Shown: positions 2,505-29,369 of the stretch, in pieces
Numbering within the stretch: the first letter of the stretch is position 1
Layout of the letters: every line of letters starts with the position of its first letter
Assembly: GCA_905250025.1 (NCBI GenBank)
Contig: CAJNOJ010000122.1
Coordinates: forward strand, 124,001 to 188,000
DNA length: 64,000 bases
Reading direction: 5' to 3'
DNA from: Adineta ricciae
Taxonomy: Eukaryota; Rotifera; Eurotatoria; Adinetida; Adinetidae
Notes under the pieces: model-generated
What the model was told of the DNA's origin: nothing
The model's database searches: none
Seen by the model: only the letters and a program-made list of their open reading frames with translations
Made by a program: the position numbers and the translations under genes

Positions 2505-2544
2505 CAGTTTCATATTTTCATTTATTTTTGTGATTAATTTATTC

Positions 2545-2550
2545 AATAAA
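2545..2550 (+). terminator. Polyadenylation signal AATAAA of the F-box gene
   Basis: AATAAA lies 41 nt after the stop codon at 2504 and before the inverted-repeat element at 2615. This position supports exon 3 as the last coding exon rather than the earlier stop at 2133. Confidence 0.5.
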
Positions 2551-2614
2551 CTAATGGGAATCCTTTAAGGGGGAGTGTGTGTACGAGAATGCGTATATTT
2601 CAATATTTGCTATC

Positions 2615-2847
2615 TACCCAGGTCGAACAATCCTATACTCGGATCCGAAACATGAATTTCCTGGATTTTCTAAGTGTCATCATAGAACATAGCTAAAAAG
2701 ATCGCTCATAAAATTTGCAACAACCGACGGGATTTTTCTAGTCGGATTCCAATGCAATTCCGTTTCCAGGAATCCGATCGGATTTTGTCGGATGGTGGGA
2801 TCCGGTCAGATTCGATCGGATCCAGCATCGGATTTGTTGACCTGGGA
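2615..2847. repeat. Short non-autonomous inverted-repeat element, copy 1
   Basis: The left end reads TACCCAGGTCGAAC and the right end is its near reverse complement (GTTGACCTGGGA). The interior is rich in CGGATTC/GATCGGAT words and has no gene. A second element with the same ends and similar interior words lies at 11867-12061. This is the structure of a MITE-like element. No target-site duplication is obvious here. Confidence 0.6.
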
Positions 2848-8800: not shown

Positions 8801-9037
8801 TCAATGCAACAGATGCATTGCTTATAATGAAATAAACTTGATGTGGTGCAATAATAACCATCATCCTTCGTTAATGACTCATCGGTTACTCAATGCACGT
8901 CAAACGACATGTCTTTTAATATTTTATTTAAGACAAAGAGAGAAAGAAAAACTTTTCCAAATGATGAAAAATAAAAAGATCAGCTGGTATCGTCTTACAC
9001 ACAGCGATTGGGTTTAAATGCAACGTCTCATTTATGC
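5825..9037. other. Long stretch without a convincing gene
   Basis: Reading frames here are short, poly-Phe/Lys-rich and lack splice or domain support. There are a GT-rich microsatellite around 5962-5983 and long A/T runs. Around 7200-7740 several short frames look protein-like (for example at 7370-7430) but are broken by stops, so a decayed gene is possible. The best short frame is 8063-8302 (79 codons, very basic), without any recognisable motif. Confidence 0.4.
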
Positions 9038-9337
9038 TTACTTAGCATTCTTCGGTGCGACATAAAAACCTTGTTGATTTTGAAGAGCATTTCGATCGAC
9101 GGGGATCAACTGGTAAACATTGACACATTGAACTTGAACTAAAAATGTCGATAGTTTCCTCTCGGTTCCCGTTGCAGTTGACGAATACCGACTTGAACGT
9201 GTTTCTTTGTTTGATCGAGGTTGAAAATGTGTCTTATATGAAATCGTTTGAGATCTCTTCACACTGGAATTTGAGGGTGGAACACTTTCAAAAATCTCTT
9301 TGATTTCATCATAATTAAACTGATATTCAGTCTCCAT
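9038..9337 (-). CDS. Small hypothetical protein, about 99 aa
   Basis: A single frame runs from an ATG at 9337 (METEYQFNYDE) to a stop at 9038. The composition is hydrophilic, acidic at the start and Ser/Thr/Arg-rich in the middle, with no signal peptide or membrane segment. It is head to head with the gene starting at 9634, about 300 bp apart, which would allow a shared promoter region. I do not recognise a family. The use of GAA/GAT/CGA codons is like that of the real genes nearby, which is the main reason to keep it. A splice from about 9165 cannot be excluded. Confidence 0.4.
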   Translation of the reverse strand: METEYQFNYDEIKEIFESVPPSNSSVKRSQTISYKTHFQPRSNKETRSSRYSSTATGTERKLSTFLVQVQCVNVYQLIPVDRNALQNQQGFYVAPKNAK

Positions 9338-9633
9338 CGTTTTCGATTGTTTGTTTTCTACTATGATAAACATGTTTATCACTCGACATATATATTCGTC
9401 AATGTGTGAACATCACAGTCAGACGCACACGAAAATTAGACTATTAAACGAATTATTCAATTGTCTTTTTCATCAACGACGCGTCAGCTATGCACATCTC
9501 TTCGACGTCATTATGTTCGTTGACTTTCTTCTATTGGATGTTATTTGTCAAACAATACAGGGTATAATAGAATTTTATATCATTGTTAGTTTTGCATTTA
9601 TTCTGACCGAATCAGAACTAGAAAACTTCGGGA

Positions 9634-10297
9634 ATGATAGGCGTTGTGGCGCAAGTAAAACAATCTGTGGAACGTCGACAAAGCTCAGATGAAGTTCGGA
9701 TCAAAAAAGAAAATATTGGCCTTGAAGATTATCAGCATCATTTATTCAATAATCAAAATAAACGTGATAGTTATTGTGAAGATTTAAACAAAATCAAAGT
9801 TCGATTCGATAAATCAATACCGAACATGCAGCAAATTATTCAAACGGATATGAAACGAATAAATATAAATAAACTTTATGATCGTCAACTGAGAGAAACT
9901 GTACATGGAACAAGAGGATTAGATTGGCAGCATAAGTAAGAGAAATTATTATTTGTTTTGCGAGAAAATCTTTTTAAACCTTAGAGAGCAATTAAAACGA
10001 TTCAAAAATGACGAGCGTGATATTCGTCGTGAATTACTTCGTCTAAATTATGATTTAGCAAAAATTTCTTTTTCATCTTATCTAAATGGAAGTTTGAATA
10101 AAAATCCGTTGCATCATTCAACAAAAAAAACAAAAGCGGTTCTTAAGCGTTCATTATTAATCACTGATCGCCGAGTGTCAATCAATTTCTCGACGCCAAC
10201 AAATCAAACACAATCATCATCATCTGGAAATGAATCATCGTCGAGGATAAGACAAAAACAATTCCATCGACAAGAAATCAAAGAATTTTTTGCGTAA
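9634..10297 (+). CDS. Coiled-coil-like protein of unknown function (gene A)
   Basis: Two exons, 9634-9935 and 9985-10297, are joined across a 49-nt GTAAGA..TTAG intron in phase 2, giving 204 aa. The protein is charged and helical (FDKSIPNMQQIIQTDMKR; FKNDERDIRRELLRLNYDL), followed by a Ser/Gln-rich tail ending in EIKEFFA. There is no signal peptide. The gene converges on a truncated CCDC170 copy at 10411-10868. A ruined copy of gene A lies in the same orientation next to the intact CCDC170 gene (25849-26165). The gene pair was therefore duplicated, and this copy of gene A is the surviving one. The family is not recognised; the coiled-coil character suggests a cytoskeletal or ciliary partner, but that is only an inference. 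Confidence 0.7.
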
Positions 10298-10410
10298 CGA
10301 ACATTGGTTTATTTTAAAGCAGAAAACGGAAACATACATTAAGTTCGTTTGAACACTGTTCCTTGTTTTTTCTTAACATTACTGACAAAACGGTATGCAT
10401 ACGAGATATG

Positions 10411-10868
10411 TTAGTATGTTCGTGGGTCGAGTTCCGCATGATGATTGGCTTGATTTCGACGAGAAACAGGACTTGGAGTACGACGACGACCATGGGCGGA
10501 GTGAGTGACAGGGTGATGATGATGAGGAGGAGGAGGTGGTTGACGTCTTTGATAAGGCGGTAACTGTTGCTGAGGTGCATTTGTTGAAGGTGGAATTTGA
10601 AGAAGAGCAACAGGCATTGATGACTGAGCAACACTGAGCTAAGTTGTTGTAAAGTGCCTTTTAAGAATCGTAATTCATTTGATAAAGTTCGTACAGCATT
10701 ATCCGACGAAATCAATGTTCGATTGGTTTCATCATCGACAGAATGCATTTTATCTTGTAAAGAAGAGATTTTAAATGCTTGTTTATCTCGGGCATTTTCT
10801 AATCGACTAATATCTTCTAGAAGACGACGAACTTCCTTTTCTCGTTCGATCAATCGATTCTTGAGCAA
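10411..10868 (-). pseudogene. Truncated copy of CCDC170 (last two exons only)
   Basis: The sequence is nearly identical to the last two exons of the intact gene at 26285-26935, including the His/Pro/Gln-rich C-terminus ending RTY. Similarity begins at the 5' edge of exon 8 (10866) and stops there, so the first seven exons are absent. Inside, the stretch that in the intact gene holds the last intron and the start of exon 9 (roughly 26543-26718) is deleted, which destroys the frame. It also lacks the short segment matching 26315-26337. The similarity continues through the intergenic spacer into gene A (9634-10297), so the copy arose as a block. Confidence 0.85.
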
Positions 10869-11192
10869 CTTTCTCTAGCTAAAGAGAAATCAATCGTTAT
10901 TTGATTCGAGATTTGAATAAGACAAACCTGATCAACAGAAATGTTTAACCATGGATAGATCACTGCGAAAGAAAGATCAGATGCTACTGATTTTCCACAC
11001 AATATGTTGTGTTCGATAATATTGTATTGAAATAAAGAAATACCTAAAGGAAAAATATACATCGTGATGTGCTCTTTTTCGCAAAGCAAAGCTACTCATT
11101 GTAGTGAAAGTCCGGTAAAGAGGAATTTTATTTAATTCTAATTTTGAGATTAATCTACATTAGTTTTTATGACTTTATCTCATGGAACATAC

Positions 11193-12180
11193 CAGATGTT
11201 GTTCGTGCATTTTGTTGATGGTCATATACAATGCATTGTGATAATTTTCAAATTTAGATAACAGAATTAGGCGTTTCTTGAAACTAAAAGACAGAAAATC
11301 GACGTGAATTTAGTATCATAAAATAAGTTTACGTACAATAAATCTACGATAGAATAAAGAGGCAATCGTTTCGCTTTTTCATTTTTGAATAAAACTGAAA
11401 TTAACTCCGATCGGGCAACACCAAATCCAGATAGAACAGTACATTTGATTGCATCAGTTAACAGATGTAAAGATTTTTGTTCCTCGATCATTGGTGACAT
11501 CGATAAGATATAATAACAACGTACAGCTTGAATATAACTGTTCTTATGATCAAATGCTATTGCCATAAATTTCTGCATGGAAGCAAAAGAAAGAAATGCG
11601 AAATTTTATCAAGAACTTCATGTTGTTAATTGTACATACTCGTAATTTCAAATCAACATCATTACTTATGTTAATAATCTTCTTTGTTCTCATCAATTCA
11701 CGTATTTCAAATAATGTCTTCTCAGCTGAATCATAATTAGCACTTTTGATATGATTCTGAATGGCTTCTAAGTATGAATCAAGCTTGACATCAGTATCAG
11801 AGGACATTCTATAAAATACAAAACAATACGATACATGTCAGATGCATCTATTGATAAAATCATACCTACCCAGGTCGATCATTCCAGCGACCGGATCCGT
11901 TGAGATCTGAATCGGTTCCGGTACAGCCCTTCTCGATTCCGGCACAGTTTTCGCCGATTCCAGAAAGTTCCGACAGGTTCCTTGCCGCCGGAATTGCACA
12001 GGAAATAGTCGGAAAACGAACCTAACCGGTCGGAACCGACCGTGCCATAATAACCTGGGTATCTATTTCTGGAAGTTCATATGGACAATCAGTAACAATA
12101 TTTAGTTCAGCTTCGTTTTTTACTTGTTCAACATTTAAATACCCGTCCGTTGTATCACTTTCGCCTTCTGGACTATTCAT
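11193..12180 (-). pseudogene. COP9 signalosome subunit 4-like gene fragment, interrupted by a short element
   Basis: Three well-formed minus-strand exons are seen: 11808-11640, 11572-11333 and 11276-11193. They give a helical-repeat sequence with the features KFMAIAFDHKNSYIQAVRCY, then DAIKCTVLSGFGVARSELIS, then LFKNEKAKRLPLYSIV. These align with the region around the start of the PCI domain in CSN4/COPS4. The N-terminal half and the winged-helix end of the PCI domain are missing. A further exon, beginning with an ATG at 12180 (MNSPEGESD), runs straight into the inverted-repeat element at 11867-12061 and meets a stop inside it at 12022. Whether that exon belonged to the same gene is inferred from position only. 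CSN4 normally acts in deneddylation of cullins; this copy is unlikely to be functional. Confidence 0.6.
11867..12061. repeat. Short non-autonomous inverted-repeat element, copy 2
   Basis: The ends are TACCCAGGT and ACCTGGGTA, a perfect 9-bp inverted pair. The interior is rich in TTCCGGTACAG- and GGTTCC-like words with no gene. It shares ends and interior style with 2615-2847. It sits between the exon starting at 12180 and the CSN4-like exons. Confidence 0.65.
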
Positions 12181-12265
12181 TATTTCCAACACACGTGGAA
12201 TTGTCAAACAAAAATTTTAATCTATAACAGTAAAGTCAACGCAGCGGCGTTACGTACTTCCAAAA

Positions 12266-12553
12266 ATGTTCAAACGTAACGTATTTGAATTGAAAACTGA
12301 ACATCTCTCAGGGTCCGATTACGTATCAAAGAAGAAAGAAAAGAATCCTTATGCAGAAGTGGAAGAAACAACCGGCCGGCCAATGAGGTGTAGGACGAGA
12401 ATACGTATACACAACTATTCGATTATAGATGGCGATCCGTACTATGTTCGAGACGAAAATCAGACAGATACTTTCATGGAAGAAAATAAGTCCCACTCAT
12501 ACTTGACCTTACTCAACATAATTGGTGTGCGAAAAGTTAGCTGGTACATATGA
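12266..12553 (+). CDS. Small hypothetical protein, 95 aa
   Basis: The frame runs from an ATG at 12266 (MFKRNVFELKTE) to a stop at 12553. It is charged, with a basic centre (GRPMRCRTRIRIHNYSI) and then an acidic patch (DGDPYYVRDENQTD). No signal peptide or membrane segment is seen. It is head to head with the exon starting at 12180, 86 bp away. The family is not recognised. A 44-nt GTGTAG..TATAG stretch inside could be an intron, which would change the second half. Confidence 0.35.
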   Translation: MFKRNVFELKTEHLSGSDYVSKKKEKNPYAEVEETTGRPMRCRTRIRIHNYSIIDGDPYYVRDENQTDTFMEENKSHSYLTLLNIIGVRKVSWYI

Positions 12554-12682
12554 TTGAATGATGATGTTAATTTATCAATGATGAAATATAATGACTAATA
12601 AATAAAGAATTGTTATTAGTAAATATATATCTAAGAATACTTCAGTCCGAACCGGAATTAAATAAGAAAATTTTGATTATTA

Positions 12683-13329
12683 AGGTTGGCGACAGGCAAA
12701 AGTGGAGCAAAATTTTTTTTGTTGAATTTTTTATGTGATATGATGCAGTTTGATGCGCTGAATCCGAATATGTATAATTTAGTGACATAGAAAGTCGTCT
12801 ACCAGGAGAAACCTTCAAAATACTACAAAAACCGAGGTTTTCGAAAAATCAGGATTTTCACTCGAAATTTGACAGTAGGGTTTTCAAAAAGTATGTTATA
12901 CCTTTGGAAGTTTATTCTCCTGATTCAGCATCAAAAACTGATTCTAGGACACTACTTTTTAGCGGTTCGACTCATGTCTTTGTCATTGAGAAAAGTCAGT
13001 TTTGTTAATATGAGAACGAATTGAGTGCCTCTCGTTAAAAATGCATCAACTCATTTTCTAGTAAAGATATACATTTTTTTCTTTCATCGTTCGACTTCCT
13101 AGATGCCCTAGATATAATCTACGTATCCTTTTTCCTTAATCCACTTTCATTCCCAAGATTTCGTCATTTTTTCCACGTGTTCTATCGGAATTTTTTTTCT
13201 TTGATTTTTAACACTATTTTCGCTTAAATTTCTTCTTTTTGAACAACTTATATGTTTATAAAGATCAAGATCTTTCTAATAACTATTTCTTTTGAATATT
13301 TATTGAAATATCTCTAAGATGAACAGACA
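12683..13329 (+). repeat. Left terminal inverted repeat
   Basis: This arm matches the reverse complement of 14377-15023 along its whole length with scattered differences. The outer end is AGGTTGGCGACAGG and the inner end is near GAACAGACAG. Confidence 0.85.
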
Positions 13330-13566
13330 GTCTGAGTTTATTTTCGTTCTGCTTGGAGTTCTTAATGTGGCGCGTGCTCTATTGGAATGATATGTGCAGG
13401 AAAATTTCACTTCACTATACGCCTATTTGGTAGCCATTGATAAGTGTAGTCGGTAGGACAAGATCGAAAATAAGTATTAGGGGAAAAACTAGAAAATCAC
13501 TGTCAAGTTTTTTACATTCTATCCTCGCAAAATCTTTCGGATCTCGCAACTTCACTCTTTCTGGTT

Positions 13567-14319
13567 ATGCCTAAAAAATCGAAAAGAAGATCTCAATCAA
13601 CCGCATCTATACAAATTCTTTGGGCTAAGAAAAATGTTGATGAATTAGATGATGCTTTTGCTCCGTATATCCCGACCGACCTGCATTACTCAAATGAAAA
13701 GTAATAAAGAAAAGAATTGTTTAAAGAACAAAATGAACGTTTTCGATATTGGAAACTTATTTGAGGCATTGTCGGAAGAGACTTCCATACGGCCGCTATC
13801 TGTATTAGTTTATTTATCATTGGCTTATTTCGGGATACCTTGGCGAGATATTGATTTATTTTTAAAGTGATCGGTGGGCTTACCGCAAAGGCTTGCAACA
13901 AATGGAGTACAAATATAATCGAACAAGACTTAGAAGAATTTCTGCAAGACAACAGAGGTGGTAAACACACCCATACCCTCACCCTCTTAATCTATTGTTC
14001 TTATGTCTAGATTTCAAAATTGGAAACACTTGCTATTGACTACGGTGTAACAATAACTTTCTCGCCGAAATTTCACTACGAGTTGAATAGAATAGAAGAG
14101 CTATGGGCGCATTTGAAGCAGCATATTAGACGTCGAGCGGATCAAACCTTTCCTTCAATGCTCAAGTTAGTTAAAAAATCCAGACCAAATTTTATTGAGA
14201 AAAATGCCTCTCTTAAACTTATCAGACGATTCTGGTGTACTTTGATCGCATATGAACGTGGTGACTCATATGAAGATGTACTAAAATGTATTTCAGTTCC
14301 ATGTGCAAAACTAACGTGA
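13567..14319 (+). pseudogene. Transposase remnant (N- and C-terminal pieces)
   Basis: An ATG at 13567 opens MPKKSKRRSQSTASIQ and the frame stops about 45 codons later. A second piece (13731-13970) reads LSVLVYLSLAYFGIPWRDID, then, after a stop, GGLTAKACNKWST and DNRGGKH. The third piece (14020-14319) is the C-terminal part of the DDE domain: FSPKFHYELNRIEELWAHLK contains the typical N-x-IE-x-x-W motif that carries the last acidic residue. The segment with the first two catalytic Asp residues is absent. The encoded protein cannot be active. Confidence 0.75.
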
Positions 14320-14376
14320 TTTCACATCCTCAAATCACTAATACCAGGCTAGATGACTGATTTTGTTGTTTACCCT

Positions 14377-15023
14377 ATCTGTTCACCTTAAGGATATTTC
14401 GATAAGTATTTGAAAGAAATAGTCATTAGAAAGATCTTTATCATTATAAACATATAAGTTGCTCAAAAAGAAGAAATTTAAGCGAAAATAGTGTTAAAAA
14501 TCAAAGAAAAAAAATTCCGATAGAACACGTTGAAAAAACGATGAAATCATGGGAATGAAAGTGGATTAAGGAAAAAGGATACGTAGATTATATCTAGGGC
14601 ATCTAGGAAGTCGAACGATGAAAGAAAAAAATGTATATCTTTACTAGAAAATGAGTTGATGCATTTTTAACGAGAGGCACTCAATTCGTTCTCATATTAA
14701 CAAAACTGACTTTTCTCAATGGCAAAGACATGAGTCGAACCGCTAAAAAGTAGTGTCCTAGAATCAGTTTTTGATGCTGAATCAGGAGCAGAAACTTCCA
14801 AAGGTATAACATACTTTTTGAAAGCCCTACTGTCAAATTTCGAGTGGAAATCCTGATTTTTCGAAAACCTCGGTTTTTGTAGTATTTTGAAGATTTCTCA
14901 TGGAAGACGACTTTCTATGTCACTAAATTATACATATTCGGATTCAGCGCATCAAGCTGCATCATATCACATAAAAAATTCAACAAAAAAAAAATTTGCT
15001 CCACTTTTGCCTGTCGCCAACCT
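14377..15023 (-). repeat. Right terminal inverted repeat
   Basis: Reverse-complement partner of 12683-13329. The outer end CGCCAACCT is followed by TA. Confidence 0.85.
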
Positions 15024-15048
15024 TATGTTTTGATTGGATAAGTTTTCA

Positions 15049-16316
15049 CTATTCGTCTGAATCGGATTCACTATCATTGTCTGAATATCGCACGTGAATC
15101 TGAAATGGATTTTCCAGTTGCTGAATTCGTTCATTGAACCATGATGGCCGTTCATCTACGATACGAACCGGAATTCGATAAATGTTCTGTGCATGACGAA
15201 AACACCAGAGACGACGATTATTTAACGACCAACTATTTCCGCTTCGTGTGCGCACCACGTTAATCATTGGTATATCGCTAACGCTGAGTACCCTGTTATT
15301 CAGATCGTCACGTACATCATGTATACTTTCACCGTTCGAAAAACGGTCTAAATAAAAGAGAAAATATAACTGTACTTATGACAAAATCAACGTACGACTA
15401 ATGGATGTTTGTGTATAACGTATATCTTTTGGATCCATATAAATTACATCATCTTCATCATCATCATTATTCATATCATTATCAAAATCATCGTTAACTT
15501 GCCATTCAAAACTACCATTATCTTTAACCATGAAATAGTTAGTATGATCCATCGGATCTAATACAAGATACTTGGTTTTGTTCAACTGTCTAACTATGTA
15601 CGAAGGTAAGTCAGGCGACCAACGAGCGGTCTCGTCTTGAAACGATACCCACCATGTATCATTCGGACCAAATGCTATATCTGAAACCTTCGGTAAAGAT
15701 TTTTGGCGGCCATTTAATTTGTTATGAAAATCGAATGGAACGCTTTCCCACGAACATTTCAAAGCATCATCTTGTATTACATATCCGTTATTACTATTAA
15801 ACCAAACCTTTATCACGAAAGAGATTTAAAAATAAACGCTACAACGCGTCAAGCGGTTTTCTTACTTTGTATGGTAAACTTGTGGAGCGCTCCAATTCAT
15901 GTTCTAATCCATCATATTCTACATTATAACCCACGTCACCGTTACTAAATCTAAATCAAGCAAGGAGTATAATCATCGATGAAAAATAATTAAGTTCTTT
16001 GTACATTTTGAAACTATCTGACCGTATCATCAAAGATTTAAACTGGAAAACTGATAAATACGCAGTGAACACAAGAGAGCACTAGCATTTCTCGAGATTC
16101 ATTCTACTCTGAGAAAAGAGTAACTTTTCATAATTACCTTAGAAACCATTGATCATCTGGTCCAAGCGTTAAAAATTCAATAGCAGATTTCTTTCGTCGC
16201 ACCGTGTTTATCAACTTATTTGATAAACCTTGATGCAACCATGAACCATCATCAAATAATATAGCATAAGACGAGTCGTACAGAGCAACACAAGTAGGAT
16301 TGGGAGATTCTGCCAT
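15049..16316 (-). CDS. Protein with repeated Trp/Asp-Gly motifs, function unknown
   Basis: Four exons (16316-16138, 15950-15866, 15807-15399 and 15347-15049) join in phases 2, 0 and 1 to give 323 aa. The frame is clean throughout. The first ~200 residues contain a repeated unit of aromatic strands with acidic-Gly turns: ILFDDGSWLHQGL, LGPDDQWFLRFSNGDVGYN, VWFNSNNGYVIQD, FGPNDTWWVSFQDETARW. Such alternation suggests beta-propeller-like blades, but I cannot name the family. A long acidic loop (Asp/Asn run) follows, then a basic region and a Ser/Asp-rich tail. No signal peptide is present. The gene lies right next to the transposon at 12683-15023 but is not damaged by it. The donor of intron 3 (GTCGTA) is weak. 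Confidence 0.7.
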
Positions 16317-16631
16317 TTTAGAGCAATGCAATATAATGTTCGATAAATTTCTAGAATTATAAAAATGAAAATGTAAACATAGCATTCATTCATTAACTCT
16401 ATGTTAATTCTCAAAAGAAAATCATTCGTTCTTCAAACGATTTATTGCATGCAGTCGTCCTTACAGCAATCAGTGGGAAAAAACCCAGTGAGACGAAAAC
16501 TACAAACAAATGTCGCTGTCGAATAAGACATAGTCAAGATGTCACTGCAGATCTTAAGTAACCTTTCGAAAGGAATGTGACGATTAATAGTATTACATCT
16601 TCGCATTCATTTATATTCTCGATTTGAACGA

Positions 16632-17057
16632 TCAAAGATGATTTTGAAAATTCATGATGGCCTTATTAGCATCACAACTTTTTTCAAAAGAATTAAATTG
16701 TTTGTAAATCGTGATATGATCACTGATGTTTGATCTCAAGATCATGACGGATAATTCTTCGTCATTAAAGGCGCCATTATTCGGTGTTCTATTTCCACGA
16801 TAAGGGTCTGTATTTGAAGTGATAGCGATCTGAAGAGAATTGATAACGAAACATAAATAACGCAAAACAAATTCATCATCTTTTACATAAAGCGACGCAG
16901 TTAGACGTAAAAAATGCTTATGAAGATGAGGATAAAGTCGCATCTTCTTCATATCCGCACACTGGTCTGAACTCCGATAATCCTTCGTATTTCGGTAAGA
17001 ATATACTTTTTCGCTGAAGCTTTGTTCAATTCGAACAGTATCGTATTTATGATACAA
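16632..17057 (-). CDS. Doubtful open frame of about 140 codons
   Basis: An open stretch without an in-frame ATG at its 5' end (it opens with TTG) could be an internal or last exon, or a decayed gene. It contains a helical-looking stretch (RLYPHLHKHFLRLTAS) and ends with a Lys/Asn-rich part. I recognise no family and find no clear acceptor upstream. It is kept only because its length is unusual for this AT-rich strand. Confidence 0.2.
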   Translation of the reverse strand: MYHKYDTVRIEQSFSEKVYSYRNTKDYRSSDQCADMKKMRLYPHLHKHFLRLTASLYVKDDEFVLRYLCFVINSLQIAITSNTDPYRGNRTPNNGAFNDEELSVMILRSNISDHITIYKQFNSFEKSCDANKAIMNFQNHL

Positions 17058-17169
17058 AAATCAAATTTTTGTAGAACATTTTTCATTATAAATAGTTTCT
17101 AGCATAGTCATTTATTGACAATATAGTAATCATTCGAATTCTCGTCACGCATGGGGGCCATTATTTCCT

Positions 17170-18651
17170 TCTCGATCAATTACCGATGGAAATATTGTAT
17201 TATGCATTTATATACTTCATGGCGCATGAGATTCGATTTAGTTTTTCTTGTATTAGTAATTATCTCAGCGCTATGTTTTATGGAACTACACAAATTGCCA
17301 AGTCAATTTCCGATCGATCAAGAAGGATGATTTTGATTCGATATGTGAACATATTCGACCAGAACAGATTACTACATTGATACTTTCCGATGAAAGAGAC
17401 TCACCTGCTCAACCCAAACTATTCTTTTCCCAGATTCAACTTGAACAGTTTACTCGTTTACAACACTTGGCATTGATTGACATGGAATCTGAATCGTTGA
17501 AAAGGATTTTTCTGAACATGGACAAATTGTATTGCTTACATTCGCTTACATTTCTTAATTCAAACATTGAACATAGATGGGAGAATCCAAGATTTGCACA
17601 AGAAAGTTTGACAAAAGTAGCACATCGCTTCAATTGAATTCATCTAACAGTAAATGGAAACTTTCTCCTATCCGTTCCTTTTCCCTGCCTTCAGTATTTG
17701 AGAGTCGACACATGTCTTGCACATGATTTCAAGACGTTGTTTCAACATTCAACTTAACTTCGGTCACATTCCGTCGATCTATATATGCTTCAAGTAAATT
17801 TTAATTGATTCAACTTCACTTAAAATATCACCGTAAATGAATGTGAATTTTAAAAACTTTCCTCATATTATTATCATTTGTAAACGGAGGCATATCAATA
17901 AGTCGTTTCATTTCAAATTCAATTCAGATTAGACACTGAACAAGGAGATTTTCGATTCATTTTGTACTCCATTCTGGCTTGACGAATAGCATTGGTTCAT
18001 CGGATATCGCGCTCGTTGTGTGTTTTTCATCCCTCATTGTACTCCTGAACTCCTTGACATGTCAAAAAATACAACCTTTCATACAACGTCATCGGAGTCA
18101 ACATTATTATATTGTCATGTGAATACCATCACATGGGGACAACATGAGTTCAATTTGGATCATTATTTTACTGATACCAAAACACTTCATATGAAATCGC
18201 CTGTACCATTTGAGGTCCTGACATCGAAAATTGATCTCGATCAAGTAATGCATTTATCTGTTATGAATGTAAATGATATATTAACATATATACCCTTACA
18301 AACTACAATGCCTCAACTCCGTAGATTATCGATTCTACTTTTTGTGTATTCAAGTACGGTTAAATCAGTATGACGCTTTCGATTTGAACAAATTCACAAA
18401 TTAGCAATAAAGATTGGAGGTGAATTTAGTGAATATCTAACTGAAGAATTAATTCAAATTTTCCCAAATCTTCAATATTTACAATGTACGTCTGAAATCA
18501 ACGCTGAAGAAATCATGTACCATTGTATCAATGGATTCAGACATTTGGAGAATGCGTCGTTTTCGTTTTCACCAGTTGTCCAACAAGATAAACGTATTAT
18601 CGGCATTATTTTGGATACCACTGTTTATCTTTCTTTGCAAAATGGAAAGTA
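17170..18651 (+). pseudogene. Decayed F-box gene, same family as the gene at 356-2504
   Basis: Successive pieces follow the order of the intact gene: an F-box start (LPMEILYYAFIYFM, about 17184), RPEQITTLILSDERDSP (17362-17408), FTRLQHLALIDMESESL, then FWLDE-stop-HWFI (17970-17998; the intact gene has FWIEEKRWFV), and C-terminal pieces to 18651. The frame shifts between about 17260 and 17300, and in-frame stops occur near 17635, 17752, 17986 and 18371. The stretch after it (18652-18910) still encodes hydrophobic segments in broken frames, perhaps the remains of a membrane tail. Confidence 0.8.
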
Positions 18652-19079
18652 AAAATTTGTCTCTTTCTTATCTTATTTGCTGTTGTTACATTTCTGCTTA
18701 TTTTTATTATTGCTTTGAAAGGCCTCAAGGAGAAGAATTTTCAAGGTTGTTCTATATGTTGGAGTGTTGGCGTCGATATGTTCTGTACTGTGATTGTTCT
18801 TGCCTGTTGTATTACAAATATGATGCATGAGCCAAAGAGCGATTCCAATCATGGCAGGCGTTCCAGTTACATGGAAAGAGCCCACGAGCACTGGGAGGAT
18901 TGGGGCTAGGAATCAGTCAAACTATTCTATCGGTTATATCTATTACGGACGAAATAAATTCACAGCAAATAGAACTTGGCATTGAATGTATGTCTTACGG
19001 TGTGGATGAGGACGCTTTCTCTCTATCACATCGTTATGCAGCCACTCACTAATACATATAAATCCGCAATATGTAACAT

Positions 19080-20113
19080 TGACTATTGTTGTTGAACACC
19101 TCTATCCCATTTGTGAGTATTGCACAATTGTATTTATTTCTGGATAATTCTTTAATGAATTTTGAATGTGCTGCACTTGATGATAATCCATTCCGTTGAA
19201 TATATAGTCCATCTTGGTAAATAACTATGCACAGAAGTAAATGTGTGATATCAGAAATGGATGAGAGTGCTACTTTATTTTGTTGTAGAACATTAACAAA
19301 ACGTTCGATTCCAGCCGATATTCAATGTAGTTAGTGTCTATAGGAAGCGCAGAATAAATAGTGTCGGAGAGGAGAGGAGAGGATTGAAAATGTCACTTGA
19401 TTTTCTTGTAAAGCATTTGCAAATGACGTGCTTCTTGGTCAAGGGTAGTGAGCGAGTAATCTCAGAAGAGATTGAGAATAGCACTAGCGAGATATTGTGC
19501 ACCGCGGTTCTGTATTTTATTTATAATGAGAACTAGTATAGACAGTGTCTGTGCAATGCAGTGTATGAACAGTAGAATGGAAGAGAGTGCGGATATCACT
19601 TCATTTTGTAGCAAAGTATTGTACTTCTTCCATGGATATGTAGATGAAAATGAGGGAGAGTGTAGTGAGTGTCTATGTGAAGTAGTAAATGGATAATTCG
19701 TGAATATAGAGTAAGAGTACTACTTCGTTTTGTTGCAGAGCAATGGCAAGACGCTGTATTCCAAAGCCATCTTCTTTACACGAGAGATCCAATGTAGTCA
19801 ATGTCTACACGAGATAGATAGCACCTAAACTTAGATAAATAGGGAGTGATGGAAGAATTGCGCGCCTGTTTTCTTTGTCATTATTTTCGAGCTATTTGAA
19901 TTGAGATTTTTTCTTCCTTATAGAAATGTACTGAACAAAAAAGTAGTTCACCTGGTATCGATGGTAGCTGCTGAGAATTATATTAAGACGAACACAAATA
20001 CTTTGTGCTGAACATATCATAGGCCAATCATCAAGATAGTCGAAAATTCGATAAACAAGCTCCACCGGCAATGTGGAAGGCGAGAGAACAGTTGTGTCAG
20101 ACATGGTCAACAT
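19080..20113 (-). pseudogene. Decayed F-box/LRR gene with one leucine-rich repeat per exon
   Basis: The first exon (20113-19952) is intact and encodes an F-box (LPVELVYRIFDYLDD) ending HRYQ at a CAG|GTGAAC donor. Three LRR-type blocks follow, each directly after a TAG acceptor and opening TLTTL: 19804-19724 (27 codons, TLTTLDLSCKEDGFGIQRLA, intact), about 19672-19598 (shortened, then a stop) and about 19337-19270 (deletion and frameshift). A last vestige lies near 19080-19200. The repeat type is the ribonuclease-inhibitor-like 28-residue LRR. The later repeats are broken, so a functional product is unlikely. Confidence 0.7.
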
Positions 20114-21658
20114 TTATTTTAAATATTTACGTTCTTATTAAATCAAATATATGATTGTGCAAATATTTGCCCGGATAAAGGAATGACTAATAGTTACACA
20201 TAAGACTGACCTTAACATTCACCACTATAGGACATTTCCATTGGCTGAGTTAGGATACAGATTAAAATATTTTCTCTCTAGTCCAAGCGCAACATCTAGT
20301 CGCTATGATACTGTTTATTGGGATATTATCCTGCCAAAATCAGACCCAGCAACGCTAAATACAGACGTCCGTATGGTTCTTCTTGAGTTTATCAGTGACG
20401 CAATTAACATTAATAAAACGCATATTGAAAGTCCGTCCATTATAATATTCCAACAGCTAACCTTCAATTAACTGCGGTATGGTAGATTTACGAACGACAA
20501 TCGGCGCTTTTGTCAAAAAATCAACGTCGTGTGAAGATATGAATGCGTAACATCAAAAGAAGTACTTTTCCTTTCACTATCTAACCCTGTTGTCCGATCT
20601 ATAAATAATGAAGACGAAAGGTGTAACGTCCGCGTCAGCATGAAAAATAAGATAATTATTATTTTTCTTTATAAAAATTCTGCTCATCTCGCAATTATAT
20701 ACTCTAACAACAGAAAAATTCGCTACAACTATTCGAGTATTCAAAATATGAGTTGGTGAATGTCTATATTTGCAATAGTATCATAAAAATTCTTCCGAAC
20801 GCCTACTTCGCATTGACCTAAGAATGCTTCCTAGTGGCACAGATTTGAATCTTTTTATTTCAATTACTCTTCGCTCAGTTCTTGTTGTAAATAACAATAA
20901 ATCATTGTTAATTGATAATCAATTATTTAATATTTAATAATAAGTTAAAATTATCATCAGATTTGAATTCCTCGACCTCAATTACCTTTCAGTCAAACTT
21001 TATTTCGCACTAATTATAGTATGCAATAATGATACGAACGAGCGAACAAACGGAAGGGCGGACGGACGGAAGGAAGGCCAAGCATCAACTTCATTTTTTG
21101 TGATATCAGCTCGACGCATATCTCTTCTTTCAGTAGAGGGAACAATAGAATAATATAGATGTAGATATCATCCATATATAACATAAAGAAAAGAGTATGA
21201 GAGTTAGTTTCATCTCTGAATACACCATTCTCACTCACACTCTTGTACCTAAAAATATGAGAATGTGAGTTCTACACCTTAGTCCCAAAGGGCTTGTGAT
21301 AATAAGCTTTTTTTCACAAAAGTCCACAATCGCAAGATGTGCTGAAGGACGCTCCTGACTAAACTATGAATAGTTTATCAAAGAACTGCTTTCGATTGTC
21401 GTAACGAGACAAAAATACAACAACTGTATGATGACGATGATTACTTAACAGAAACATCAATTAGTGCAATATTTGCACATTTAATGTCGCTTTGTCAAGT
21501 ACGATGTATAATTTGAGAAAGAGCAAATAAAAACAAATATATTGGTATGTTAAAAAGAACAATCAATAGAGAGACGTACGTAACAAATGAATAAAATACA
21601 ATCGTAAAGTACATCAAATTGTCTTTTCAAACGCACACATACGACCATTGATCATTAG
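20114..21658. other. Intergenic stretch with one short frame and the first direct repeat
   Basis: A 77-codon frame at 20241-20471 opens with TTG right after a possible acceptor (ATAG at 20228-20231) and may be an exon remnant. The direct repeat at 20488-20816 follows. From 20817 to 21658 I see no gene, only AT-rich sequence with a GGAC/GGAA-rich patch near 21055-21080. Confidence 0.4.
20488..20816 (+). repeat. Direct repeat, copy 1 (upstream of innexin)
   Basis: About 325 bp that recur at 23494-23820 in the same orientation with few differences. Its start reads, in frame, TIGAFVKKSTSCEDMN then a stop; copy 2 has TIIGSFVKKSTPHEDMN then a stop. It may therefore be a duplicated gene 3' end plus trailer, or a dispersed element. 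Confidence 0.8.
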
Positions 21659-22997
21659 ATGAAGATCGAAATAGAGACACTCCTTATTTATAAGTCACTC
21701 TTTCAGCTTGATGTTGATACGATTGATCGATTAAACAGCCGATATACTACATTGGCATTGATCGGTTGTTTCTTGATTATATTGGGAAAAATTTATGTAG
21801 GAAATCCAATCAATTGTTGGGGACCAAGTAAGGTTTGAAAATCATACATATTTCCCATTCGATAGTTGCTCGTTCTTCATCTACTATAGCGCAATTTCAG
21901 AGTGTTCATTTTACTTATGTTAATAGTATTTGTTGGCTCAAGGGAACTTATTATTTACCAACTAAGGAAAGTATGTTTTGTCGCATTACTAGTCGTCATT
22001 CATCATGACTGTTGTTGTTTTAGTTGAAATTCCTGATCGATCCGTACCACGAATGTATCACGTGTAAGTGAGATAGCTGATCCAAAATTAGTTCATCATA
22101 TTCTCATGTTATCAATATCAATCTAGATCTTATTACCAGTGGACGACAATAGCTCTTTTGCTGATGGCTTTTCTATTCACATTACCAGGTCATACGTGGC
22201 AAACATTTTCATCTCAAAGAGGTGTAAATTTGAAAAATTTGGTCAAAATGGTAAAAGAAAATCGTCATAGCAGAAAGGAACTCGATTACGTTCTTCGATT
22301 GATCAAAGCACAACTGGATATAACTAGAATTAAACGTTCACGTACTCTTTCTCATCTAAAATGTCGAGTAGTAAATCCTATGGGTCGGCTAACATTGTTA
22401 TTATTCATAGTCAAGTTTTTTTATATCATGAATACACTGGGTCAACTACTATTTTTAATCAACTTTCTTTCTTTACGACGTACTGATCTTAATGGTAATA
22501 TTATTGGTCGACTATTCGGAGACCGAATGTATACCTACGAGTCTGCTCGATTTCCGCATGTTGTTATATGTGATTTTATGATTCGCGAATTAGGCTCCAA
22601 TCAACATTGGTATGCTGTTCAATGCAATTTGCCAATTAATATTTACAATGAAATGATCTTCTCTGTACTCGTAATATGGTTGATTATTCTGAGCATTGCA
22701 AATATATTTTCTATTATTTTCTGGATTTTTTTATTGACAAAGAAGAATCGAAAACGATTCATTATTCAATGCTTGCAAATGTATGAAAGTGTGGAAACAA
22801 AAATGATGATCAATAAGAAGAGCTTGACAGAAAGTCATTTTATTGACTATATAGGTTTAGATGGCTTTGTTATTCTACGCGTTATTGGACAGAATATTAA
22901 TGAACTCTGCATGATTGAAACTATGAGTTATCTCTATAAACATTATAAAGGAAATCTTGGTGACGTTAACGATCAGTCTGAAGACCATATTGTGTAG
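21659..22997 (+). CDS. Innexin (gap-junction/hemichannel subunit)
   Basis: Four exons (21659-21827, 21890-21970, 22024-22063 and 22127-22997) join in phases 1, 1 and 2 to give 386 aa. Family hallmarks are present: DTIDRLNSRYTT before TM1, YVGNPINCW, the loop SICWLKGTYYLP with conserved Cys, SYYQWTTIALLL at TM2 (the innexin YYQW signature), and FPHVVICDFMIRELG before the second extracellular loop. Four membrane segments are evident. Innexins assemble into channels joining the cytoplasms of neighbouring animal cells. All introns are 53-63 nt. The first-intron donor GTAAGG at 21828 restores the usual residues before the first loop Cys, so I prefer it to the later GT. The gene lies between two direct repeats (20488 and 23494). 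Confidence 0.92.
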
Positions 22998-23493
22998 GTA
23001 TTAATGGTAAACTTTCGAAACGAAAAATTTAGAAAATGAAATCTGAAAAAAAAAACAATTTTCTGTATAAAATCAAACAAAACATCGTAAGAACCAAGAA
23101 ATAATCAAGTTCTGATACTCATCTTCATCTTTACTTGACTTTAAATTATTATCACTCTCATCTCTTATAATTTCCCATTAATTCTTTCGTTTATTTAATT
23201 GAAAAGTATTGAACTTCTTGATCATTTTCTAGTTAATGCTTGTTTCTCATCATCATTTTCTTATAAATTGAATTAAATTCTTTATTTGATTATTGTAACT
23301 TTTACAATTTTATCGCATACGTCAACTCATGACTTATGTGATGCTGTTATTCATATCGAAAGTCCGTTCGTTTAAACATTTGAAGAATCTTTAGTTAACC
23401 GCAGATATTTTTGAATACTGAAAAATATTGCATGCAACAAAATGGTAGAAAAAAATCAATGGAATCAAAGAAGAAAAAGAAAAGCCGATTTTT

Positions 23494-23820
23494 ACGAACG
23501 ATAATTGGCTCTTTTGTCAAAAAATCAACGCCACATGAAGATATGAATGTATAACATCAAAAGAAGTACTTTTCCTTTCACTATCTAACCCTGTCGTCCG
23601 ATCTATAAATAATGAAGATGAAAGGTGTAACGTCCGCGTCAGCATGAAAAATAAGATAATTATTATTTTTCTTTATAAAAATTCTGCTCATCTCGCAATT
23701 ATATACTCTAACAAGAGAAAATGTTACTACAACTATTCGAGTATTCGAAGTATGAGTTGGTGAATGTCTATATTTGCAATAGTATCATAAAAATTCTTCC
23801 GAACGCCTACTTCACATCGA
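23494..23820 (+). repeat. Direct repeat, copy 2 (downstream of innexin)
   Basis: Nearly identical to 20488-20816, from TTACGAACGA to CGAACGCCTACTTC. No terminal inverted repeats and no gene of its own. The short frame reading into it (23431-23552) is Lys-rich and ends in EDMNV. Confidence 0.8.
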
Positions 23821-24534
23821 TGCAAGAGCTCACTTTGATGACAAGAACCTTATAAGATCAGCAAGTTGCAGTAAGACAAAAATTATTTGTTTTCCGATAT
23901 TTTCCTCACAGATTGTTCCTAAAAGGAACATATAGTCTCTTTTAAAAGTGATTCACTGCTCGTTTGAGTGTTGAAACAGCGTAGAGAGAATTTAATCACG
24001 TCGTACTATTCACAGTTGGTAAGACCACGAATCTGATTGTTTCAAATATTCTATCTGATACTACAGTAATTTTGAACTAGTTGAGTATTTGATGAGCATC
24101 AGTATAGTCTGGAGAATTTTTTTCCTTCTGAAATATTTATAGAATAATTAAAACTAACTTCCTATCGTTAAGATATTTTCCAGGCAGATGATTTTATCTA
24201 CGACTTATACAATTTTGTTATTTTTTAAGCACATCAGAACCGAGTGTAGATGTTTATAATAACACAAAATTATGAATGACAAAATTGGTAGTTATTCTTT
24301 ATGAATAACGCTCAGAAAATGTCACATACTTCTTGTCTATATAGAATGACACTAGAATGTTACCCAATGCAACTCTTTTTTAAAAAACTTACATAGTGCC
24401 AATTTGCGTATGTCTGCTCGTAGAGAAGAGAAATATAGACATTCCATACCCCACAGTTCCAAATCAGGAAAATGTACAACTTCGCCGTTTTTTCATTATA
24501 GAATCTTCTTGCGCACAACTCAGTCTTTTTGATT

Positions 24535-25425
24535 ATGTCGATAATCAATAATACAACAACAGCAATCGTTCTTTTTGTTCCGATTAGACGACCTGTTCAG
24601 TTCAGCATCTTATTAATAATTGCAATCGTTTCTTTGCCATGTTCTATTTTTGTTCTTCATCATTTCTTTTCAAGCAAAACACTTTATCGCGCTGTTAACA
24701 ATCATATTATCATTCTTTTACTCATAAGTAATTGTCTTCAAACTCTAACAGATATACCAGGACAACTAAGCTACTATCTCTTAGGTACAAACTGGCCACT
24801 GACGCTCAGTTATTGTTATTATTTTTATTTCGTTGATTTTTATTTATTTACAACATGTTTTATACTTTTGTCATGGTCATCCTTCGAACGACATATTCTC
24901 ATTTTCCACGGACATGTCTTCAATACATATCGTAAACGTCTGATTTATCATTACATACCTCTCGTGATCTGTGTAATTTATCCACTGATTTATTATGTTT
25001 ACTTTATATTTTTTTACCCATGTGAAAATTACTATGATGAATATAGATCGTACTGTGTTCCAGTTTGTTATTTGAGAACGAATGCTGTGATGGCTCTATA
25101 TGAGCAGATTGCCCATGGTTTTGGATTGATGCTGATTATTTTCATTTTTAATGTTTTACTGCTTGTTCGAATTCATCGACAAAAAGCTCGAATGGGCAGA
25201 CAAATGACATGGAAGAAGAATCGGAAGATGACAGTGCAATTATTCAACATGTGTTTGTTGCTTTTTCTGACCAATGGCGGCTATTTTGTCGTTCAGATAG
25301 GACAAATGTTGTATGATCCAAACTTTGGAGTGGACTTCAACCTATGGGCACAAAATTACGACAGTTGCCAAAGAAGAATTCGAGGCGTCCTGCCATGCCC
25401 TAATCACTCGTTTACGTTTCATTGA
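24535..25425 (+). CDS. Rhodopsin-like GPCR, apparently lacking TM7
   Basis: A single frame from an ATG at 24535 gives 296 aa. Six long hydrophobic segments are visible. TM1 contains LLIIAIVSLPCSIFVL; TM2 IIILLLISN; TM3 FTTCFILLSWSSFER, with the ER of an E/DRY-like motif; TM4, TM5 (GLMLIIFIFNVLLLVRIH) and TM6 (LLLFLTNGGYFVVQIGQ) follow. After TM6 the sequence turns into a charged, Cys/Arg-containing tail (about 30 aa) with no seventh helix and no NPxxY-like motif. Another frame from 25313 also lacks one. Receptors of this kind are numerous in bdelloids. This one is probably 3'-truncated, or has an unrecognised last exon beyond 25425. Confidence 0.6.
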   Translation: MSIINNTTTAIVLFVPIRRPVQFSILLIIAIVSLPCSIFVLHHFFSSKTLYRAVNNHIIILLLISNCLQTLTDIPGQLSYYLLGTNWPLTLSYCYYFYFVDFYLFTTCFILLSWSSFERHILIFHGHVFNTYRKRLIYHYIPLVICVIYPLIYYVYFIFFYPCENYYDEYRSYCVPVCYLRTNAVMALYEQIAHGFGLMLIIFIFNVLLLVRIHRQKARMGRQMTWKKNRKMTVQLFNMCLLLFLTNGGYFVVQIGQMLYDPNFGVDFNLWAQNYDSCQRRIRGVLPCPNHSFTFH

Positions 25426-25848
25426 TGTTGCTTTTGTGAGTTTATTGAAAATATTATTTACTAGAGGGAGACCCGCTGCAAATAAGAAATATCTATGTCG
25501 AACATCTCACGTGCTGAAGAGTTATAACAGATAGAAAATCAATACAATTAAAATTTCTACGCTTCCAGTCCTTATTTTTCCCACCGTGCATCGCATAAAA
25601 TGGCAGTTTCGGCTATATCTCTTTATGCAAAACAGTTACCGAAGCTAATTTCTGCCTCAGAAATCATGAAAATTTCCTCTTTCTCTTATATTGATTTTCC
25701 ACTCTAGCTATTCATTCATCGACCTCTTTCTCACTCTCACGTCATTTCATGCCTTATATCCTTCGAATTCACCCACCCTCATCATTTATCTTAATCTTTT
25801 GAGATCCTGTAACGCTATTGGTGAGTTTCGCAGATTATCTGTAGCATN

Positions 25849-26165
25849 ACTGTGACAGTTTAGATAGAGTTAAACATCGATTTGACAAAACAATAATCAA
25901 TGAGCAACAGAAATTGTTATCCAAATTGATATGAAATGAATGGACACAAATCAACTTTATGAGCCAGACCATCAATCGTGTACACATGGACTGAAAGGTT
26001 AAAATTACCCATATAAGTAAGAGAGTTTATCATTTAGATATCGATTAAAGCGTTTTTAAAAGTGAAAGCACAATCCTGACTACCAGTAATAAAAGATGTT
26101 CGATACATGCTCTACTTCAGACAACTCTTTCCCATCTTAATCAACAGGAAATCAAAGAATTTTTT
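25849..26165 (+). pseudogene. Ruined copy of gene A
   Basis: The sequence can be followed against 9776-10297: a segment matching the region after the Cys-Glu-Asp-Leu codons, then ATATGAAATGAATGGACACAA against the Asp-Met-Lys-Arg region, the TAAGTAAGAGA exon/intron junction, and a final identical stretch of about 20 bp that encodes the terminal EIKEFFA and its stop. Between these anchors there are many substitutions, stops and deletions. It begins one base after a single N (25848). It has the same convergent placement next to CCDC170 as gene A has next to the truncated CCDC170. Confidence 0.75.
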
Positions 26166-26284
26166 GCGTAACGAACATTGGTTTATTTTAAAGCAGAAAA
26201 CGGAAACATACATTAAGTTCGTTTGAACACTGTTCCTTGTTTTTTCTTAACATTACTGACAAAACCATATGCACACGAGATATG

Positions 26285-29200
26285 TTAGTATGTTCGTGGG
26301 TCGAGTCCCGCATGTAACGGCGAAAGTGACCGTGCACGATGATTGGCTTGATTTCGACGAGAAACAGGACTTGGAGTACGACGACGACCATGAGCGGAGT
26401 GAGTGACAGGGTGATGATGATGAGGAGGAGGAGGTTGACGTCTTTGATAAGGCGGTAACTGTTGCTGTTGTTGTTGCTGAGGTGCATTTGTTGAAGGTGG
26501 AATTTGAAGAAGAGGAACAGGCATTGATGATTGAACAACGCTGAGAAGACGTTCTAATCGAGCTGTGATTTCATAGTCAGGAACAGATAATGTCTTGGCA
26601 TCTAACCCAAGCATACGAGCGATCAATGCACGAAAATCTAATAACTAAAATTGAAAAGTGTTTAGAAAAAGTGTTCATCAGCAAGGTTTCTTTCCTACTT
26701 GTTGTTCTCGTTCACTAATTTGTTGTAAAGTGCCTTTTAAGAATCGTAATTCATTCGACAAAGTTCGTACAGCATTATCCGACGAAATCAACGTTCGATT
26801 AGTTTCATCATCGACAGAATGCATTTTATCTTGTAAAGAAGAGATTTTAAATGCTTGTTTATCTCGGGCATTTTCTAATCGACTAATATCTTCTAGAAGA
26901 CGACGAACTTCCTTTTCTCGTTCGATCAAGCGATTCTAAATTTCGAATCGAAGATAATCGTTTTTCAAACAAGAAAATGCAATTACTTTGAGAGTATGAA
27001 CATCGGCACTTTGTGTTTTGAGTAAAGTGTTTTCATTTCGTAATTCATTGACTTGTTGAGTTAAACTTTCCACTTTTAATTTCATTTTTCGTGATAAAAT
27101 CACGTGATCATCAATTTCTTTTTCTAAATCTGTTTTCGCTGTTCGACCTTCTTCTAAAGCTGATACTTTTTTCTTCAATAGATCTAAATGTAAATCCTTG
27201 TTTTCCATCAATTCTTTCATTTGTTTGATTTTTCGCTGTAAATTATAAACCGATGTTCGTTGATCATTGAGCGAATCATTTTCAGTTTTCATCAGTTGTT
27301 CCGCTCGTTGTAAAATCACTTCTGGATTTAATTCCGTTGAATAACTTTCAATTTGCATTATTGCACCAAGTCGCTCGAGAAAATGAACGAACTTCGCTTT
27401 GTCTTGTTTATGATTTTCTCGATAGACATCTGCCGAAGTGCAGGTCATGTTCAATGTTTTCAGACGATTTTCTAATTCATACAAATGCGACTCGGTATGA
27501 GTTCGTTTCTTCTCCGATTCTTTGTTCATTTCGAGTTGTTCTTGTAATTGCTTGGCTAATTGTTCTTTTTGATTTTGAAGGTTTGTTATGATCTACGAAG
27601 ATGAAGTTAGTGAGTTTTGGTAAGAAAAGTAGAATGTGAACTTACAAGGCCTCGGTCTTTGCTTGATTGCATTAATAAATGAATCTTTTCTTTAATTTCA
27701 TCTTCTTTTGGTTCAACTTTGATATATCCATCAGAAAGCAGTTGTCCGACTTGTTGTTTGAATGCTTCGAAGCATGATTTGCTATAAGCTAAATCGTTTT
27801 CTAATTGTTTAACATGTAGTTCATTGGTGGAAAATCGATTTTGTCGTTCGTCTAATTCTCCACGTGTGTTCTGCCAGGCTTTCTGAATGGAATCAAGACG
27901 AGATTTCACTGTTTCAAGTTCACTTTTGACCATTTCTTTATCATGAAGTGCCGCATCTCGCTCGGCTTTGATCGCATCGATTTGCAAGCGATGGCCGATG
28001 GTATTATGATCATAGGATTGTAATTGATTGGTCATTTGTTGAATGGTTGCACGATTTGTTTGCGAATCTTGTTCTAACAACTTATTCGTTTCTTCTAATT
28101 TGACCATTTTTCCTTTTAGTAAGATATTCTCAGCATTTATATCAGCAATCTAAATGAGTAGTACGGTGAATATTTGACGAAATGTAAAATGATCCTTGCA
28201 GAACAAGATTAGAAACTTCTCGTCAACGTCAACGATACTTTTGACCTTGGATTGTATTTATTGACTTAAGAAATGATTTCTCTACTAGTCAATGAGTCTG
28301 TCGTGAAGAAAACTAAGTTGATTGATCACTTACTCTGTTTATAACTGTTTCGAATGCTAATGTACTCGGTTGTCCATAATCATGTCCAAGAGTGACACTT
28401 AATTGTGCGAATAATTCTTGTAATTTTTTGTGCAGCGCATCCATTTTTCGTTCATTTACTTCTCGTTCTTCCATGTGTGCTCTAAAGAAACATGTTCAGT
28501 TATCAAAATACGAATCCGTTGACCTTACCTGATTCGTGTTTGTAATTCTAATAATTGATCTTGTTTTTCTCGAGCATCTTTTTGTAATGATGAGATTGTT
28601 AATGATGATTTATTTGCAACTGAATCAAACGAACTCATGTTCGTCTCGAGCTCGCGAATTCGTAAACGAAATTGATTATTGGTTTGAAGAAGAAGCTCCT
28701 GCTCGCGTTTGAGCGAATCATTTTCATGTCTTAACTCATTGATTCGTTCATCTTTCGCCGAGCATTTGATCGATGTTTCACGTAACTAAAACGATTTTGA
28801 TTCATATTTCAATAAGAAAACGAAAGATCGGCGAGTTACATCGTGTGTTAGAGCGTCGATTTTCATTCGACATTGGTCTAGGTCGCGCTGAGCTGCTGCA
28901 AGAGATGTTCGATCAACACCAGATAAAACGTCGTATCGAGACGGTTCGAAATGAACATGTTTATTTGCATCCCTGTTGTGACGAAGAAAAAACAAAAAGA
29001 TGATTTTGACAAATACAAACTAATGCACATTACTTCATTGAAGTTAATTCTTGAACAAGAGCATCTTTATTCTCCAGATCTTTTTTCAAAATGCGTAATT
29101 GGTCTTGTAACTATGATGATGACACTCAAATAAACTTAATAAAGAATTCGATTTTTACTTACATCTGCTAGAGCTTTTCTCGATTCCGAATTATCACACG

Positions 29201-29369
29201 GAGTTGTTCCGTATCCAAGAGGACTGAAACTCGTAGATGTAGTTGTATATGGTCCTCGAAAAGTACTATATTGAGATTGTTGTGTAAGAGGAGCATTGGA
29301 ACTCGCATCGATAATCGCTCTTGCCGAGCCAAGCAGTTCGCGTTCAAGCATATAACTTGATGATGTCAT
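26285..29369 (-). CDS. CCDC170: CCDC170-like coiled-coil protein
   Basis: Nine exons: 29369-29163, 29110-29034, 28972-28840, 28785-28529, 28481-28334, 28149-27646, 27592-26987, 26935-26699 and 26644-26285. All join in frame, for 842 aa. Almost the whole protein is heptad-like coiled coil. Two stretches match vertebrate CCDC170 as I recall it: FLERLGAIM...ELNPEVILQRAEQL followed by NLQRKIKQMKELMENKDLHL, and near the end DFRALIARMLGLDAKTLSVP then DYEITARLERLL. The C-terminus adds a Gln/Pro/His-rich tail. CCDC170 associates with Golgi-linked microtubules in vertebrates; a microtubule or ciliary role here is inferred. A shortened copy of the last two exons lies at 10411-10868. The gene is divergent from TM9SF3 (starts 584 bp apart). 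Confidence 0.88.

Follow-up and report, generated by a model that had tools for sequence, protein, structure and literature searches.

A stretch of 64,000 nucleotides from the bdelloid rotifer Adineta ricciae (GenBank assembly GCA_905250025.1, contig CAJNOJ010000122.1, positions 124,001 to 188,000 of the forward strand), referred to here as the window, carries two damaged copies of one pair of neighbouring genes, gene A and CCDC170, 16 kb apart and in the same orientation. Both blocks lie within one assembled record, contig C122. Taken at face value, this arrangement is a reciprocal loss between copies linked on one chromosome, the kind of evidence that formerly served as an argument against any sorting of bdelloid chromosomes into haploid sets. 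The checks described here point rather to a scaffold join, and call for caution with claims of linked reciprocal loss. The name CCDC170 is that of the first-pass annotation, an earlier reading of the window; Pfam matched this protein only below cut-off, and a PDB sequence search returned no match at E 0.001. For gene A, Pfam matches were likewise confined to those below cut-off and the PDB sequence search gave nothing useful, a match to a VirG-like protein (E 0.01) being set aside. The two blocks comprise the following features.

9634 to 10297, plus strand: gene A, intact left copy of 204 amino acids, with exons 9634-9935 and 9985-10297 (reading frame and GT-AG intron)
10267 to 10861, no strand: high-identity tract made up of the last codons of gene A, the spacer, part of CCDC170 exon 9, and exon 8 (alignment)
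10411 to 10861, minus strand: CCDC170 3' tail, frame broken (alignment to the right gene)
25848, no strand: single N, a probable scaffold join (gene A homology stops there)
25851 to 26140, plus strand: decayed copy of gene A, collinear with 9775-10266 and about 200 bp shorter (alignment)
26285 to 29369, minus strand: CCDC170, intact, nine exons, 842 amino acids (reading frame; contig C176 matches from 27439 rightwards at 96-97%; homoeologue at C45:167329-170281)

Structure and divergence of the two blocks

In the left block the intact gene A, interrupted by a 49-bp GT-AG intron (9936-9984), is followed by a copy of the last two exons of CCDC170 that is about 97% identical to its counterpart outside gaps. 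In the right block the decayed gene A adjoins the intact CCDC170, which has no internal stop and GT-AG borders in all eight of its introns. Self-comparison of the window finds the blocks as direct repeats in the same orientation, 10266-10638 with 26140-26545 (88% counting gaps) and 10639-10861 with 26715-26937 (97.3%), the longest exact runs being 118 and 128 bp, of which the 118-bp run falls in the spacer. The first-pass annotation is thus borne out in that the pair is present twice, in one orientation and about 16 kb apart, with gene A whole on the left and CCDC170 whole on the right. A DNA search of the genome (130 Mb in 1033 contigs) with 9600-10900 listed the two blocks alone (two of two candidates).

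The right copy of gene A, described earlier as a wreck, is real: it aligns with the left gene A at 65% identity over 226 columns (E 8e-19) with a score of 60.5, whereas 200 dinucleotide shuffles gave a mean of 14.8 and a maximum of 21.5, ruling out a chance match. It is too degraded for a protein search of the genome to detect. The wreck begins three bases to the right of the single N at 25848, with homology strong to the right of this base and undetected to the left (scores of 15.5 and 13.5; shuffle means of 13.8 and 13.7), although gene A would be expected to continue there. The earlier claim that the block was copied as a unit is left without confirmation.

The left CCDC170 is cut down to its last two exons, as had been claimed, ending at 10861. 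It retains the stop codon, the 3' part of exon 9, and all but 16 bp of exon 8, and it lacks a 169-bp stretch around the last intron that corresponds to 26546-26714 on the right (99 bp of exon 9, the 54-bp intron, and 16 bp of exon 8), the absence of which shifts the frame. There are three more length differences, of 24, 12, and 3 bp, all in frame; by eye, the homologue on contig C45 has the 24 bp, and the left copy therefore lost them. At least two of the exon-8 changes fall, by eye, on the right-hand lineage, and the exon-8 amino acids are identical over 69 residues. As the left tail differs from the right gene in the way that two recently working copies do, it probably died recently. The start at an exon boundary and the absence of an intron might suggest a CCDC170 retrocopy, which was rejected, as the loss extends into both flanking exons, by 99 and 16 bp, and the similar tract reaches into the last codons of gene A.

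Divergence between the blocks is far from even. The part of gene A left of about 10267 is 65% identical (71% with looser gap costs), whereas the last 31 bp of gene A show 2 differences, the spacer 3 in 113 bp, exon 9 6 in 225 aligned positions plus 39 gap columns, and exon 8 6 in 221, and the left tail as a whole diverges from the right gene by 2.7%. Identity changes abruptly at about 10267/26141, from 65% on the left to 93-97% on the right. Such a sharp step inside one homologous stretch is expected of gene conversion and is compatible with either direction and with an allelic or an ectopic exchange. Given this unevenness, with 65% identity in gene A rising to about 97% once its last codons are reached, some exchange or conversion over the CCDC170 side is needed under nearly any model, in agreement with the first-pass annotation, which had also called the spacer almost identical. 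The latter holds, with the correction that high identity already sets in within the final codons of gene A and not at the end of the gene.

Related copies and single Ns

A search of the genome with the CCDC170 protein (E 0.001; all 32 candidates scored, a scope that applies to the copy counts below) found four places: the right and left blocks on C122, contig C176, and contig C45. Further homologous copies, for which a search had been proposed, are thus present elsewhere. Matches to the tail were confined to the left and right blocks and C45, and those to the 5' part to the right block, C176, and C45; no third allele-level tail appeared in this search. Contig C176 starts inside CCDC170, without the tail, its first base aligning at window position 27439. 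From the right gene it differs at 38 of 1480 coding positions (2.6%; 31 synonymous and 7 in residue-changing codons), at 22 of 451 intron positions, and at 51 of 1106 positions downstream. The left tail supplies much of what C176 lacks, the extents of the two being complementary, and at each position the assembly holds at most two allele-level copies, the further copy being C45 only.

The C45 copy of CCDC170 is more distant, at 42-66% amino acid identity by stretch in the genome-wide search and up to 70% in direct comparison, with matches spanning the query end to end. The order on C45 is X' (turned round), A', CCDC170', and genes matching 30.0-38.3 kb of the window. Gene X lies to the left of gene A.

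3725 to 4738, minus strand: gene X (59% and 84% amino acid identity to C45:162271-163156, in the matching neighbourhood of the homoeologous contig and in opposite relative orientation)

Elsewhere in the genome, the gene A protein found only C45:165989-166198 (32%, E 2.1e-5; six of six candidates scored), within a gene A that reads by eye as two open exons. The C45 gene A scores 34.5 against the left gene A, above the shuffle maximum of 23.0, and the wreck shows no excess over shuffles against the C45 gene A (18.5; mean 14.0, maximum 21.5). C45:162-177 kb is a collinear, diverged copy, which concerns C45 and not the two blocks of the window, and one such collinear locus does not establish tetraploidy. 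As C45 carries the same order, the adjacency of A and CCDC170 is the older arrangement. Open reading frames (ORFs) of at least 60 amino acids from 10.9-25.8 kb found no match in C45:150001-179999 (E 0.001), and the segment between the blocks is therefore an addition or belongs elsewhere.

The window contains three single Ns, at 25848, 49512, and 63970. A lone n is the notation that some scaffolders use for an estimated negative gap, although no passage to this effect turned up in the papers searched. At 63970, the 30 bases that follow the N and end the window match 63749-63778 at all but one position, a stretch that starts 221 bp before the N; as judged from these letters, this has the clear look of two overlapping variants that were joined without being merged.

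63749 to 64000, no strand: single-N join, with a variant repeat across N 63970 (self-comparison)

The middle segment and flanks

Between the blocks lies a segment of mixed content, annotated in part by running 10 of the 259 ORFs of the window against Pfam.

10862 to 25847, no strand: middle segment, with a COPS4 fragment, an inverted-repeat transposon-like element, an F-box-like gene, an innexin, and a 7TM gene (self-comparison, Pfam)
10862 to 11780, minus strand: fragment related to COP9 signalosome subunit 4 (COPS4) (ORF 11270-11605, phmmer to COPS4 chains, E 2.5e-10)

The COPS4 fragment abuts the CCDC170 tail no more than 2 bp from the boundary of exon 8. By eye, the pieces 10853-11023 and about 11730-11777 also read as COPS4. 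Since the COPS4-like fragment (10853-11060) joins the tail within 2 bp of the splice acceptor and in the same orientation, a fused transcript is conceivable. Further along, an inverted repeat at 12681-15025, with arms of about 650 bp that are 95.9% identical, encloses an ORF whose match to DDE_3 is weak (E 0.0015, under the curated cut-off), and resembles a long-armed transposon of the Tc1/mariner type. Direct repeats of 327 bp (20487-20813 and 23491-23817, 94.2%) flank the innexin ORF at 22092-22994.

The left flank includes a dispersed repeat of about 210 bp at 2600-2855, with pieces at least 150 bp long, 86-96% identical, on over 30 further contigs, a count that is a lower bound. This repeat, at 2.6-2.85 kb, dominates the genome search with window positions 1-10900, for which the best 39 of 442 candidates were scored. 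Members of a family that we call F-box-like (Pfam gave a weak leucine-rich-repeat match for the first ORF and none for the second), lie at 296-2501, 17171-18595, and 49517-49657, the match of the third stopping 5 bp from N 49512. Among the best 39 of those 442 candidates, the left F-box-like gene has closer relatives on C836 and C508, at 79-80% DNA identity.

Explanations of the paired blocks

On balance, with a confidence a little better than even, we read the two blocks as homologous haplotypes of a single locus that were placed one after the other on a scaffold, the damage lying in a different gene in each. A scaffolding step would have put the two haplotypes in a row at N 25848. Haplotype B would run from gene X through the intact gene A to the CCDC170 tail. 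A rearrangement that introduced the segment with the COPS4 fragment would have interrupted CCDC170 at the boundary of exon 8, and contig C176 would be the CCDC170 5' part of this haplotype; haplotype A would consist of the decayed gene A, the intact CCDC170, and the genes that follow. Exchange between the haplotypes would have made the CCDC170 sides alike and come to a halt within the final codons of gene A, so that the older decay of this gene still shows. We infer a join at N 25848, and a false one, a single allele comprising the left tail and C176, and an exchange between haplotypes over the CCDC170 side. This account is favoured because it explains the N, the stop of homology at the N, the allelic distance of the tail (2.7%, similar to the 2.6% of C176 coding sequence), and the copy count. 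Also in its favour are the join-like repeat at N 63970, the complementary extents of the left tail and C176, the adjacency of A and CCDC170 on C45, where the tested ORFs of 10.9-25.8 kb had no match, and the precedent of collinearity breaks that span scaffold Ns in two bdelloid drafts (PMC5916493). The first-pass annotation had placed both blocks on one molecule, a claim that stays unconfirmed, since it rests on the single N at the edge of the wreck. Its reciprocal loss stands as damage in the sequence, and fares less well as a linked duplication, given a tail at allelic distance and a contig C176 that supplies most of the rest of a second allele. The case that it named against itself, two alleles misplaced on one scaffold, is closely approached, while the uniform divergence that it attached to this case is absent.

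Several observations weigh against the account of two haplotypes in a row. The 35% divergence of the gene A part is far beyond allelic, and the account does not itself explain it; with gene A at 65% and the tail at 97%, an extra exchange tract is therefore needed, as it is for a true duplication. The spacer diverges less between left and right (2.7%) than does noncoding sequence between C176 and the right block (4.6-4.9%). The interval 26936-27438 is covered by neither the left tail nor C176, leaving one allele-level copy there and making the union of the two as one allele presumptive, and C45 showed no separate allele, such that a third tail could be collapsed or missing. As to the join, the sequences on either side of N 25848 and of N 49512 were not found to overlap, and N 25848 is 15 kb away from the tail, whereas at 63970 the overlap is direct. 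One N run in the examined C45 DNA is 10 Ns long, so run lengths vary and a single N may be an ambiguous base. Finally, F-box-like ORFs stand in the same order in front of both blocks, at an offset of 16.8 kb.

This last point, together with the shared orientation and order of the blocks, the collinearity of the wreck with gene A, the abrupt passage from 65% to 97% identity, which resembles the edge of a conversion tract, and the presence of both blocks in one assembled record, speaks for a genuine duplication, the model of the first-pass annotation, in which the A-CCDC170 pair was copied about 16 kb away, a different member was lost from each copy, and recent ectopic conversion covered the spacer and tail. 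We regard such a duplication as unlikely, though deserving of weight. Its linkage runs through N 25848, which would have to be harmless, and the third tail that the C176 allele should possess was not found. In a self tblastn of ORFs of at least 60 amino acids, the F-box-like ORFs were alone in repeating in the same order besides the pair itself, at 40% and 25% amino acid identity, and no other left-flank ORF of that length was duplicated; the closer relatives of the left F-box-like gene on C836 and C508 mark it as one of a dispersed family, which weighs down a larger in-step 16-kb duplication.

The 118-bp exact match between the blocks also raises the prospect of a swap within the identical spacer, whether made by the assembler or produced by a genuine crossover. 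What truly exists would then be X - A - CCDC170 - rest, which is the order of C45 and in which neither gene is damaged, and a dead fragment of decayed A - CCDC170 tail - COPS4 fragment; all damage would sit on one piece, and the apparent reciprocal loss would be a product of the swap. We consider this improbable, because tail and wreck on one dead piece would differ greatly in age (97% against 65%) and, at the N, the two ends of the dead piece would have to meet; moreover, ordinary paired short reads should span 118 bp. The left fragment begins no more than 2 bp from an exon boundary (10859/26935) and stops next to gene A, which could suggest unrelated events, with a short, recent ectopic copy of the CCDC170 3' end inserted between gene A and the COPS4 fragment. 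This appears very improbable, as the tract includes the last codons of gene A itself and the full spacer, the missing intron is gone together with pieces of both flanking exons, unlike in a processed copy, and A adjoining CCDC170 is the older order.

If the blocks are indeed two haplotypes, the homologues of a clonal animal would carry complementary nulls, gene A working on one only and CCDC170 on the other only, a corollary that we hold tentatively and think somewhat doubtful. This state may be bounded by the exchange tract in the last codons of gene A, and free segregation would break it up. Complementary damage on two homologues, if true, would have implications for the decay of clonal genomes.

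A 2013 study by Flot reportedly described bdelloid drafts with linked homologous blocks and breaks of collinearity. Among titles and the opening parts of abstracts on linked or complementary loss in bdelloids, nothing concerned this locus. Many collinearity breaks in two bdelloid drafts span scaffold Ns, the linked homologous blocks of Adineta ricciae numbering only 2, both tandem (PMC5916493), scaffolding errors can yield artificial palindromes (PMC7953838), Adineta vaga is among the species with many reported haplotypic duplications (PMC10548655), and the assembly methods of other bdelloid drafts are given in PMC7943196. With haplotypic duplication, in which alleles are assembled as paralogues (PMC10548655), the locus shares two tail copies that one draft holds at an allelic level of divergence, a further contig that ends within the gene, and an N between the copies; it differs in that the copies lie 15 kb apart and not at the N, and in a gene A far beyond allelic divergence. 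A tandem segmental duplication with gene conversion would likewise give a direct repeat and a sharp high-identity tract, whereas here linkage is unproven and, besides the pair, the F-box-like ORFs alone repeat in step. The linked homologous blocks and collinearity breaks of bdelloid drafts, as set out in PMC5916493, are similar in that homologous blocks share a scaffold, at this locus as direct repeats separated by an N, and different in that the present case involves one gene pair only, the two copies of which are damaged in a complementary manner.

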